64,000 bases of DNA from Pseudodesulfovibrio sediminis (GTDB lineage: Bacteria > Desulfobacterota > Desulfovibrionia > Desulfovibrionales > Desulfovibrionaceae), in contig NZ_AP024485.1 of assembly GCF_020886695.1 (NCBI RefSeq), positions 1,745,001 through 1,809,000 on the forward strand, in the 5' to 3' direction. The notes under the pieces are model-generated. The model had not been told where the DNA came from, ran no database searches, and saw only the letters and a list, made by a program, of their open reading frames with translations. Position numbers and translations under genes: made by a program. The first letter of the stretch is position 1, and the number at the start of each line of letters is the position of its first letter. This document shows positions 57,263-63,354 of this stretch, piece by piece.

Positions 57263-57444
57263 GGAGGTCAGCACTACCCCTTTTTCAATGCAGGGGCAAG
57301 GGGTGGCGGCAGCTTCTCATGCCCAGCTTCAGAGCTGAACCCAAGGCAATATGGGCGCGCAAAACGCAAAAGGGAAAAACAGATATTTTTCGGAGGTGAA
57401 TGTGTTGACAGAACCCGTCCGGCTCTTTAATGATTTCTCAACTT

Positions 57445-57583
57445 GTTCTCAGGGCGGGGTGGAAATCCCCACCGGCGGTGATCTGTTCAACAGAAAGCCC
57501 GCGAGCGCCTCTCGCTGTTGAGAGGGTCAGCAGACCCGGTGTGATTCCGGGGCCGACGGTAACAGTCCGGAAGGAAGAGAATA
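57445..57583 (+). ncRNA. FMN riboswitch (RFN element)
   Basis: The conserved core is easy to read: TCTCAGGGCGGGGTGGAAAT near 57448, CCCACCGGCGGTGAT, AAGCCCGCGAGC, GGTCAGCAGACCCGGTGTGA and CCGACGGTAACAGTCCGGAA, ending near GAAGAGAA. It binds FMN and switches off the downstream ribB gene, which starts 120 bases later. Confidence 0.96.
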
Positions 57584-57704
57584 AGACAGTTTCCACTCGC
57601 GCCCGAGCGATCCTCGCCCGGACTTCGCGCGTCATGACGTGTGCAACTGCACGCGCCAGACTGTCTATGCGCCCTGATTCATTCATACTCTTTACAGGAG
57701 ATTC

Positions 57705-58436
57705 ATGATGAATCAGCCCCTACTCAAACAGTTCGGTGGCCCCATTTCACGGGTCGAACACGCTCTCGCGGCACTCCGCAAAGGTCAGGGAATCCTGGTC
57801 ACGGACAATGCTGACCGCGAAAACGAAGGTGATCTCATCTTCGCCGCAGAGACCCTCACCAATGAACAGATGGCCATGCTCATTCGCGAATGCAGCGGCA
57901 TTGTCTGCCTCTGCCTGACCGACGAGAAGATTCAACAGCTCGGCCTGCCCATGATGGTTGAGGAAAACAACTCCCAGTACCAGACCGCGTTCACGGTGAC
58001 CATCGAGGCCGCCGAAGGTGTGACCACCGGCGTTTCCGCAGCCGACCGCGTGGCCACCATCAAGGCAGCCATTGCCCCGGACGCCAAGCCGTCCGATCTG
58101 GCCAGCCCCGGTCATGTCTTCCCGCTCCGGGCCCGTCCCAACGGCGTTCTGGAACGCGGCGGGCACACCGAAGCGACCGTGGACCTGACCCGTCTGGCCG
58201 GACTGAAGCCATGCGGCGTACTCTGCGAAGTGACCAACCCCGACGGCACCATGGCCCGCATGCACGACATCGTCCGTTTTGCCAGAAAGCACGAGCTGAC
58301 GGTCTGCACGGTGCAGGACATCATCGCCTACCGCGAGCACCTGGGCGACACCAAGGCAGACAAGGTCGCCCCTGTGGACGCGACCATCCTGCAGAAATCG
58401 AGCATCACCCTCCCGGCCGGAGCTCTGGCTTCATAA
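57705..58436 (+). CDS. ribB: 3,4-dihydroxy-2-butanone 4-phosphate synthase
   Basis: 243 residues. [18 protein letters not shown] near residue 30, the Cys in [11 protein letters not shown], and [45 protein letters not shown] are all family blocks. It converts ribulose 5-phosphate into the four-carbon unit of riboflavin. AGGAG is 5-8 bases before two in-frame ATGs at 57705 and 57708. There is no fused RibA domain. It is controlled by the FMN riboswitch upstream. Confidence 0.96.
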
Positions 58437-61434: not shown

Positions 61435-61499
61435 GGCAAATTGATAGCACAATCTTTTTCCAACGGCATGCACAATTTGGGCGGGAAATCCGATTGAAA

Positions 61500-61557
61500 C
61501 GAGAAAGGCTCCCTTTCGGGAGCCTGTTATTTTCTCGGTGCAAATAAAAGGAAGATG
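61500..61557 (-). ncRNA. Predicted short transcript A: small RNA or attenuated leader
   Basis: The sigma-54 promoter at 61569-61583 predicts a start near 61557. The transcript would read CATCTTCCTTTTATTTGC and then a stem: inner GGCTCCC-GAAA-GGGAGCC with an outer CGAGAAA/TTTCTCG pair, ending near 61500. The outer pair differs in copy B but remains paired. The UCUUCCUUUU stretch is complementary to ribosome-binding sites. About 58 bases. Confidence 0.6.
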
Positions 61558-61568
61558 CTTTCTTTATA

Positions 61569-61583
61569 GCATTCGCCGTGCCA
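61569..61583 (-). promoter_or_regulatory. Sigma-54 promoter A
   Basis: Minus strand TGGCACGGCGAATGC with the GG and GC elements exactly 12 bases apart. The 54 bases around it (61538-61591) are identical to 63139-63192. Confidence 0.8.
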
Positions 61584-61682
61584 AACTTTTTCATCCGCAT
61601 AATTTATTTATAAAAACACATTATTCCAAGATGTTACAAACGCAAACAAGAGGAGGTAATTCCCTAACCAACATGCCGTTTC

Positions 61683-61740
61683 AGTACAATTTTTTACACT
61701 CTGCCCGACAATCCCCTGTGTTGGGACAATTTTTTATACT
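61683..61740. promoter_or_regulatory. Paired activator dyads upstream of promoter A
   Basis: AGTACAA-TTTT-TTACACT (61683-61700) and GGGACAA-TTTT-TTATACT (61723-61740), 40 bases apart, the nearer one 100 bases from the promoter. Copy B has both at the same distances. Probable enhancer sites of an unknown sigma-54 activator. Confidence 0.7.
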
Positions 61741-61743
61741 CAC

Positions 61744-61770
61744 AAAAAAAGGGCTGCTTGAAAGCAGCCC
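61744..61770 (-). terminator. Terminator of the aminotransferase gene
   Basis: Minus strand GGGCTGCTTTCAAGCAGCCC followed by TTTTTTT, 25 bases after the gene. Confidence 0.85.
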
Positions 61771-61794
61771 TTGAACATCTTCTGAAACGAGGAA

Positions 61795-62985
61795 CTAGGC
61801 GTAGCGTTTCATGGCCTGCACGAAACCGTCCTTGGAACGCAGGATCACATCCTCGCCAATGCAGAAGGCGAGCCGGAAGTAACCGGGGCAGCCGAAGCCG
61901 GAACCGGGTACAGCCAGAATCTTCTCTTCCTGAAGGGTGGCGCAGAACTTGACGTCGTCTCCGCCCGGAGCCTTGGGGAAAAAGTAGAATGCGCCGCCGG
62001 GCATGGTGTATTCAAATCCCGCGTTGTCGAGCACGCTGGCCATGGCCTTGCGGCGGGTATCATAGATGCCCACATCAACGGTGCTGCCAAGCGCTTTGGC
62101 GAGCAGCTTCTGGGCCAGAGCCGGGGCATTGACAAAACCAAGGATACGATTGGCCAGGATGATGCCGCCGACCAGCGCCTCCTTGCCCTCGATGGCCGGG
62201 TTGACCAGCGCATAGCCCACACGTTCGCCGGCCATGCTGAGGTTCTTGGAAAAGGAAGAGCAGACCACGGAGTACGTATAGACATCGAGTATGCTCGGCA
62301 CTTCCGCCCCGTCAAAAGCGAGGAACCGATAAGGTTCGTCCGACACAATCAGGATAGGCCTGTCACGGCCTTCATTGTGTCTGGTCAGGATGGCGGCCAG
62401 TCCGTCGAGCTGTTCCCGTGTGTAGATGGCACCGGTCGGGTTGTTGGGGGAGTTGATGAGCACCACCCGGGTTCTGTCCGTAATGGCTGCGTCCATGGCC
62501 TCAAGGTCCAGCTCAAACGTCAGCTCCTTGGCCGGAACCGTGACCAGTTTGGCCGCATGGTTCTCGCAGTAGAACCCATATTCGACGAAATAAGGGGACG
62601 GGACCATGACTTCATCGCCCGGTTCAAGCACGGCACGAAAGACCGAGTTCAAGGCGCCGGCGGCACCGCAGGTGATGACCAGTGAATCCGCAGGAACATC
62701 CACGCCCTGCTCCTTGGAGACCTCTTCGGCCAACCGCTGGCGCACGTCCGGGTACCCGAAGTTGGGCATATACCCCATGAAGAACGGGGTATCAGCCTGC
62801 TCGGCCAGCTCTGCCAATGCATCCTTGATGCTCGAAGGCGGCGGCAGGTCAGGATTGCCGATACTGAAGTCGCAGACCGCGTCTTCACCAAACTTCTTTT
62901 TCATGGCGAGGCCTTCCTCGAACATCTTGCGAATCCATGAAGAACATTCCATATACCCGGCTATCTGAGGCGAAATCAATTGCAT
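61795..62985 (-). CDS. Class I/II pyridoxal-phosphate aminotransferase
   Basis: 396 residues from the ATG at 62985 (AAGGAG upstream). SIGNPDLPPPSSI, INSPNNPTGAIY (cofactor contact) and CSSFSKNLSMAGERVGY (Lys that binds pyridoxal phosphate) are visible, ending with the FRLAFCIGEDVI segment. The family covers aspartate-, alanine- and aromatic aminotransferases; the substrate cannot be read. Promoter and leader B lie upstream. Confidence 0.92.
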   Translation of the reverse strand: MQLISPQIAGYMECSSWIRKMFEEGLAMKKKFGEDAVCDFSIGNPDLPPPSSIKDALAELAEQADTPFFMGYMPNFGYPDVRQRLAEEVSKEQGVDVPADSLVITCGAAGALNSVFRAVLEPGDEVMVPSPYFVEYGFYCENHAAKLVTVPAKELTFELDLEAMDAAITDRTRVVLINSPNNPTGAIYTREQLDGLAAILTRHNEGRDRPILIVSDEPYRFLAFDGAEVPSILDVYTYSVVCSSFSKNLSMAGERVGYALVNPAIEGKEALVGGIILANRILGFVNAPALAQKLLAKALGSTVDVGIYDTRRKAMASVLDNAGFEYTMPGGAFYFFPKAPGGDDVKFCATLQEEKILAVPGSGFGCPGYFRLAFCIGEDVILRSKDGFVQAMKRYA

Positions 62986-63094
62986 GCGTGACTCCTTATT
63001 GTCATGTGAAGCGATCACTGTACGGCAAACAGTTTTCACCCGCAACACAATGCGAACACGAGGCGAATCAACAAACTTTCACTGGGAATGGGTA

Positions 63095-63158
63095 CAAAAC
63101 AAGAAGGCCCCCTTTCGGGAGCCTGTTATCTTTCTTGTGTGCAAATAAAAGGAAGATG
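63095..63158 (-). ncRNA. Predicted short transcript B: small RNA or attenuated leader
   Basis: Same arrangement as copy A: predicted start near 63158, CATCTTCCTTTTATTTGC, then GGCTCCC-GAAA-GGGGGCC with an outer CAAGAA/TTCTTG pair and TTTTG. Compared with copy A, the outer stem changed on both sides and stays paired. Confidence 0.6.
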
Positions 63159-63169
63159 CTTTCTTTATA

Positions 63170-63184
63170 GCATTCGCCGTGCCA
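63170..63184 (-). promoter_or_regulatory. Sigma-54 promoter B
   Basis: Identical to promoter A (TGGCACGGCGAATGC). It lies about 185 bases before the aminotransferase ATG. Confidence 0.8.
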
Positions 63185-63283
63185 AACTTTTTGCATCACG
63201 CAACTTTATTTTTTATTCATGTAATTACAACATTTTACAAACGACAACAAAGGAGACAATTCGTCCTTCATCCCTGCTCAAAA

Positions 63284-63341
63284 AGTACAACTTTTTAAAC
63301 TATCCCCAAGAAACTCCCCCCTCGGAACAGTTTTTTATACT
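63284..63341. promoter_or_regulatory. Paired activator dyads upstream of promoter B
   Basis: AGTACAA-CTTT-TTAAACT (63284-63301) and GGAACAG-TTTT-TTATACT (63324-63341), again 40 bases apart and 100 bases from the promoter. Bases between the sites have diverged, so the sites themselves are conserved. Confidence 0.7.
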
Positions 63342-63354
63342 CACCGCTGGCACC

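Follow-up and report, generated by a model that had tools for sequence, protein, structure and literature searches.

Architecture of the duplicated module

The window, a stretch of 64,000 nucleotides of Pseudodesulfovibrio sediminis DNA, carries two copies of a compact module, both on its minus strand. It opens upstream with two dyads, distal and proximal, spaced 40 bp apart; an IHF-like site comes next, then the sigma-54 promoter TGGCACGGCGAATGC, and finally a unit of about 63 nt made up of GCATCTTCCTTTTATTTGCAC and a hairpin. The features of the two copies are as follows.

61496..61558, minus strand: predicted sRNA copy 1, ~63 nt, GCAUCUUCCUUUUAUUUGCAC followed by the hairpin CGAGAAA-AUAACA-GGCUCCC-GAAA-GGGAGCC-UUUCUCG-UUUC; start placed from the sigma-54 -24/-12 elements, with family alignment, covariation and a covariance model (CM) score of 80.9 bits
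61538..61558, minus strand: putative 5' single-stranded targeting segment of copy 1, GCAUCUUCCUUUUAUUUGCAC; unpaired probability mostly near 1, pairs with porin mRNA at -23..-6
61569..61583, minus strand: sigma-54 promoter TGGCACGGCGAATGC of copy 1; TGGCA[CT]-type -24 and GC -12 conserved among the genus copies
61624..61636, minus strand: IHF-like site TAACATCTTGGAA (degenerate form YAANNNNYTGNWW) of copy 1; degenerate-motif count over 59 copies
61683..61701, minus strand: proximal enhancer (UAS) GAGTGTAAAAAATTGTACT of copy 1; matrix score 19.5
61723..61741, minus strand: distal enhancer (UAS) GAGTATAAAAAATTGTCCC of copy 1, 40 bp from the proximal one; matrix score 22.1
63096..63159, minus strand: predicted sRNA copy 2, ~64 nt, outer stem CAAGAA/UUCUUG; family alignment, covariation and a CM score of 70.5 bits
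63139..63159, minus strand: putative targeting segment of copy 2, identical to that of copy 1; porin pairing and folding
63170..63184, minus strand: sigma-54 promoter TGGCACGGCGAATGC of copy 2; TGGCA[CT]-type -24 and GC -12 conserved among the genus copies
63225..63237, minus strand: IHF-like site TAAAATGTTGTAA of copy 2; degenerate-motif count over 59 copies
63284..63302, minus strand: proximal UAS TAGTTTAAAAAGTTGTACT of copy 2; matrix score 18.8
63324..63342, minus strand: distal UAS GAGTATAAAAAACTGTTCC of copy 2, 40 bp from the proximal one; matrix score 17.2

The longest identical stretch between the copies measures 54 bp (61538-61591 = 63139-63192) and contains both sigma-54 promoters, exactly as a first-pass annotation of this DNA had described it. 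The paired dyads noted there, 40 bp apart and about 100 bp upstream, are likewise right in coordinates and geometry, the sites measuring as 19-bp imperfect palindromes and the proximal dyad lying about 100 bp from its promoter in both copies. When scored with a matrix made from 118 such sites, the four window dyads are the best four matches in the whole 64 kb (17.2-22.1 bits, the fifth reaching 11.1). Folding predicts the first 14 nt of copy 1 to be fully unpaired and allows copy 2 a possible weak pairing of 3 bp, GCA with UGC. Elsewhere in the window, an FMN riboswitch (RF00050, 118.2 bits) is found at 57441-57586 on the plus strand, upstream of a ribB-like gene at 57705.

A structured RNA family of the Desulfovibrio order

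Over 38 diverse copies, the 18 hairpin pairs are formed in 95.9% of cells (pair by copy) and 12 of the 18 have changed on both sides, a result equalled in none of 500 shuffles and nowhere near approached by slid registers. The difference in the outer stem between the window copies, CGAGAAA/TTTCTCG against CAAGAA/TTCTTG, which the first-pass annotation had read as a change on both strands and for which it proposed a covariation analysis, is a real compensated change. The covarying hairpin indicates that the module encodes a structured RNA, presumably transcribed from the sigma-54 promoter and terminated at the hairpin; copies in other families show a proper U-tract after it (e.g. L504 and L530). 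The predicted RNAs would be 60-70 nt long and begin with GCAUCUUCC or with the lineage's own seed.

A search of related genomes, also suggested at first pass, found the module by blastn in 34 of 36 congeneric genomes and in none of 24 other relatives at that sensitivity, and in diverged form across the order. Genomes of Pseudodesulfovibrio hold one to five copies, at times in tandem, with three inside ~830 bp at one locus (L037). The window's own genome (G000) has four, namely the two in the window and a tandem pair at G000:C1:3681268 and 3681569. Class I copies have a short hairpin, while class II copies have a longer one of the form GGCTTCACCGGA-TGG-TCCGATGAAGCC and dyads often spaced by 52 bp rather than 40. 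The tandem pair belongs to class II (L158 8269-8340 and 8570-8641) and has a cobalamin riboswitch 6 kb off (L158 2145-2321). Over 59 genus copies the dyad spacing is 40 bp in 50 and 52 bp in eight, sites being picked automatically and a different second site having been chosen in the one other copy. The degenerate IHF-like motif occurs in 39 of the 59, nearly always at -52/-53 from TGGCA, against a mean of 1.8 in shuffles.

The genus covariance model extends to other genera of the family and misses Nitratidesulfovibrio and other families, so that its silence does not mean absence; a scan with the general form of the pattern corrects for this. Another pattern scan, of the whole collection, brought out Nitratidesulfovibrio, Humidesulfovibrio, Salidesulfovibrio and termite-gut Desulfovibrio as carriers of the module. 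The general form, TGGC-N8-TGCW...YYYYYYYTTTTGC, is present in 143 of 297 genomes of the order, a count that includes some chance matches within coding sequence, and in all six sampled families, against six matches in total for the backwards control. In the copies examined from other families, the paired dyads lie mostly 51-53 bp apart and the terminators are strong. Matches to the paired 40-bp dyad pattern, in turn, fall at sRNA loci in most genomes scanned. The family matches nothing in Rfam at gathering or relaxed thresholds and, judged by sequence, is a previously unnamed multicopy RNA family spread through the Desulfovibrio order.

Several weaker candidates were left aside. The covariance model matched weakly in G099 and G186, at sites that have neither promoter nor dyads and probably represent bidirectional terminators; G086 also gave a weak match. 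BLAST matches comprising the terminator only (L081-L083) or lying on the minus strand in L084 and L085 were excluded from the family.

Complementarity to the ribosome-binding site of a major porin

Scanning 17 genomes for AAAGGAAGA-N2-8-ATG revealed AAAGGAAGA as a recurrent ribosome-binding site (RBS) ahead of porin genes. The porin matches NCBIfam NF033939, outer membrane homotrimeric porin DESULF_POR1 (469.7 bits, cut-off 250), and is taken, from name and size, to be a DVU0799-type protein, DVU0799 being the major porin of D. vulgaris. The sRNA 5' segment, UCUUCCUUUU...UUUGCA, is complementary to the DESULF_POR1 RBS at mRNA positions -23 to -6, the targeting segment of copy 1, GCAUCUUCCUUUUAUUUGCAC, lying opposite TTGCAAAGAAAGGAAGAA of the porin 5' UTR. 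In the window's genome, each of the two conserved unpaired sRNA blocks finds a partner in the porin 5' UTR, TTGCAAAGAAAGGAAGAATTATTATG: UCUUCCUUU pairs with AAAGGAAGA, and UUUGCA pairs with UGCAAA. The second of these pairings explains the otherwise puzzling conservation of UUUGCA.

It was complementarity within the genus that first drew attention to the porin; genus members therefore form the discovery set and cannot count as independent tests, a role that falls to the other genera and families. The sRNA pairs with the porin RBS in nearly all of 19 genomes tested, and in 15 of them the contiguous complement at the porin is longer than at any of 779 background genes, these being drawn by crude gene calls from fetched loci rather than whole genomes. 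The energy of sRNA-porin pairing is -24.3 kcal/mol for cognate and -20.5 for non-cognate combinations, and -24.8 against -19.9 kcal/mol among 13 distinct lineages, with 0 of 20,000 permutations as extreme in either case, in tests that take no account of phylogeny. For one genome of another family (G040, f6), the prediction was set down first and a match of 14 bp was then found, sRNA CUUUCCUCCUUUUGCA opposite CGCAAAAGGAGGAAAA; for a second (G038), the pair CUUCCUCUUUUUG opposite CAAAAAGAGGAAG was seen before the prediction was made. Three further genomes (G039, G122 and G043), for which the porin RBS was obtained before the sRNAs were found, gave perfect matches of 16, 16 and 13 nt, respectively. 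Duplexes of up to 20-23 bp are predicted for Salidesulfovibrio and G021.

Weak pairing was seen in G047 (six contiguous nt), in G064 (seven) and, with 9-10 nt, in Nitratidesulfovibrio; G021 and G302 each also have one porin paralogue that is a poor partner. Nitratidesulfovibrio genomes contain sRNA homologues of three types, which differ in their hairpins and share the CCUUCCUUUCUUU-GCA seed (L264, L271, L304, L319, L324 and L287). The same genus has several porin paralogues with slightly different RBSs, and its sRNA-porin pairs may possibly have specialised. At one locus (L450, G205:C26), the seed match is perfect over 12 nt (GAAGGAAGGTTC) and the porin frame behind it has no clear ATG, GTG or TTG start, for which an unusual start codon or a sequence error is suggested. 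Tracing the perfect 12-mer complement AAAAGGAAGATG across the genus was not informative, the matches outside the sRNAs being mostly coding sequence and not conserved RBSs.

Porin promoters and the candidate activator

The same dyad recurs at the porin promoters, where its palindrome is stronger (GGTAAAAATTTTTACC). It lies about 120-165 bp ahead of the start codon, and a conserved sigma-70-like promoter, CTTGCCAA...TAAA, follows some 25 bp downstream of it. Outside Nitratidesulfovibrio, 17 of 20 porins have a dyad scoring at least 18, against 2% of 652 genes; the porin-promoter dyad is found in most other genera tested and is weak in Nitratidesulfovibrio. In the window's genome the porin gene (L104, G000:C1 ~959000) is divergent from uvrC and has two adjacent dyads, with a third match ~308 bp upstream of its start.

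No dyad was found near any of the 28 enhancer-binding protein (EBP) genes of this genome, and no EBP gene adjoining an sRNA copy was flagged by position. With its form GGTAAA-N6-TTTACC, the porin operator is similar to a TyrR box. An EBP with an N-terminal ACT-like domain and a TyrR-like helix-turn-helix is encoded at G000:C1:2882721 (L371) and could, as a guess and a lead only, be the reader of this operator. Searches for Hfq (PF17209) and ProQ (PF04352) in 60 genomes from the order recovered the controls and neither of these proteins, although the sRNAs appear to be widespread in the order.

Proposed mode of action and alternative explanations

We are confident that these loci represent a sigma-54/EBP-driven, multicopy and Hfq-independent sRNA family that is predicted to repress the major porin at its RBS. 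A signal would activate the EBP, which would bind both dyads and be carried by IHF-like bending to the sigma-54 polymerase at TGGCAC-N6-TGC, driving several sRNA genes at once. The resulting RNA of ~63 nt would end at the hairpin, and its free 5' end, UCUUCCUUUU and then UUUGCA, would pair with the porin RBS from -23 to -6 and block translation without Hfq or ProQ. The same EBP probably binds the dyad that precedes the sigma-70-like promoter of the porin itself, and one signal would then set pore supply at two levels, in what may be a feed-forward arrangement. The sequences themselves show the anatomy of the module, the breadth and covariation of the family, its complementarity to the porin RBS with the co-variation between lineages, and the shared dyads; from these features we infer transcription and termination, the repressive direction of control and independence from Hfq in action, the activator and its signal being postulated. 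Beyond this, we lean, if only slightly, towards an envelope circuit that operates throughout the order without Hfq or ProQ, in which one sigma-54 activator, possibly TyrR-like, would serve the porin promoter as well as the enhancers of one to five sRNA genes, the signal would act on porin transcription while silencing the porin mRNA, and seed and RBS would have co-evolved since the ancestor of the order.

The CU-rich tract resembles the 16S anti-Shine-Dalgarno sequence and might instead make the RNA a broad binder of mRNAs, or a decoy for an RNA-binding protein, with the porin as one partner among many. LhrC has further targets. LhrC is itself a multicopy CU-rich sRNA (PMC4132741), and, when only energy is considered, 2.5% of 786 background genes equal the porin as partners of the sRNA of the window's genome, so that further targets are likely. 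Such a general role is nonetheless improbable, given that the seed co-varies with the porin RBS lineage by lineage, including the part outside the Shine-Dalgarno sequence (UUUGCA/UGCAAA), and that the same dyad is present at the porin promoters.

Another reading, offered at first pass, was that the RNAs are attenuated 5' leaders whose hairpin governs read-through into the downstream binding-protein and aminotransferase genes, and in the window both RNAs do face a co-oriented gene 20-50 bp downstream. A leader or riboswitch would keep a constant site upstream of a co-oriented gene, whereas the next gene, called with a crude gene caller in 58 copies, shares the RNA's orientation in 27 and is convergent in 31. 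Since it is convergent in about half of the copies, the RNAs are regarded as sRNAs and not as leaders. The neighbouring genes are unrelated between loci, tandems reach three copies (L037, L151), and the conserved 5' segment is accounted for by porin pairing, all of which makes the leader interpretation very unlikely.

Pairing alone does not give the sign of control, and the porin mRNA could in principle act as a sponge for the sRNA or be activated by it; the duplex, however, spans the stretch 6-23 nt ahead of the start codon and includes the Shine-Dalgarno sequence, the classic repressive position, and we give either outcome very little credence. That the module is silent intergenic DNA, recently duplicated and giving no transcript, would fit the 54-bp identity and is scarcely credible in view of its conservation across the order despite diverged flanks, its covarying hairpin and its fixed promoter geometry.

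Comparison with known systems

The putative sRNAs combine a predicted mode of action like that of MicF, RybB and LhrC with a control like that of Qrr, and by sequence belong to none of these. Qrr1-5 of Vibrio are likewise multicopy siblings, each with a sigma-54 promoter and upstream EBP sites, that act by antisense pairing. Qrr RNAs require Hfq and LuxO and target quorum regulators. The present family shares the sigma-54 promoter, the upstream sites and the several copies and differs in lacking an Rfam match, in the absence of detected Hfq from 60 relatives (PF17209) and in its predicted target, a porin. The idea of two sibling sigma-54 small RNAs with Qrr-like logic, put forward in the first-pass annotation, has thus held up, and the exposed CU-rich segment that it saw as aimed at RBSs has acquired a specific, conserved target in the major porin; its additional likening to GlmY/GlmZ has not, there being no evidence of a hierarchy of that type and no Rfam match.

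MicF, RybB, MicA, OmrA/B and VrrA are also linked to the envelope and block porin mRNA at the ribosome-binding region, and the 5'-end seed seen here is RybB-like. The conserved and co-varying complementarity to a porin RBS is what a porin-repressing antisense sRNA would display. These enterobacterial and vibrio sRNAs are driven by sigma-70 or sigma-E and are mostly Hfq-dependent, and no sequence relation to them was found. LhrC1-5 of Listeria (PMC4132741) are similarly multicopy, with CU-rich (UCUUCCC) single-stranded anti-Shine-Dalgarno motifs and one shared regulator, but are under LisR two-component rather than sigma-54 control and have other targets and another structure, again with no Rfam match for the present family. 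NcS25 of Burkholderia controls a porin for which sigma-54 has been discussed, yet the sRNA itself has no sigma-54 motif, its host has two Hfq proteins, and no sequence relation was found (PMC10117139).

Porin silencing by sRNAs has been regarded as an Hfq/sigma-E theme of enterobacteria, and the present family suggests that it arose under sigma-54 control in a different class. To our knowledge, almost no small RNAs have been characterised in sulfate reducers of the Desulfovibrio group, and literature searches returned nothing on sRNAs that regulate porins in Desulfovibrio. DVU0799 is the major and apparently essential porin of D. vulgaris (PMC5686591) and was the highest-scoring mutated D. vulgaris gene in a syntrophy evolution experiment (PMC8319347). 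For the regulation of this porin, the sRNA family points to a seed and a target that can be put to the test. Because the two co-vary throughout the order, they would also be well suited to studies of how interacting RNAs co-evolve.

Closest to the family in the literature are four ncRNAs of D. vulgaris Hildenborough, from the same bacterial group and likewise under sigma-54/EBP control, whose function is uncharacterised; porins are not mentioned in either paper (PMC4641369, PMC3333781). Three of the four adjoin their regulator gene (DVU0653, DVU0679 and DVU2359), whereas no EBP gene was found beside the three Nitratidesulfovibrio sRNA types within the available flanks. The fourth, located upstream of DVU3282, is possibly a member of the sRNA family described here.
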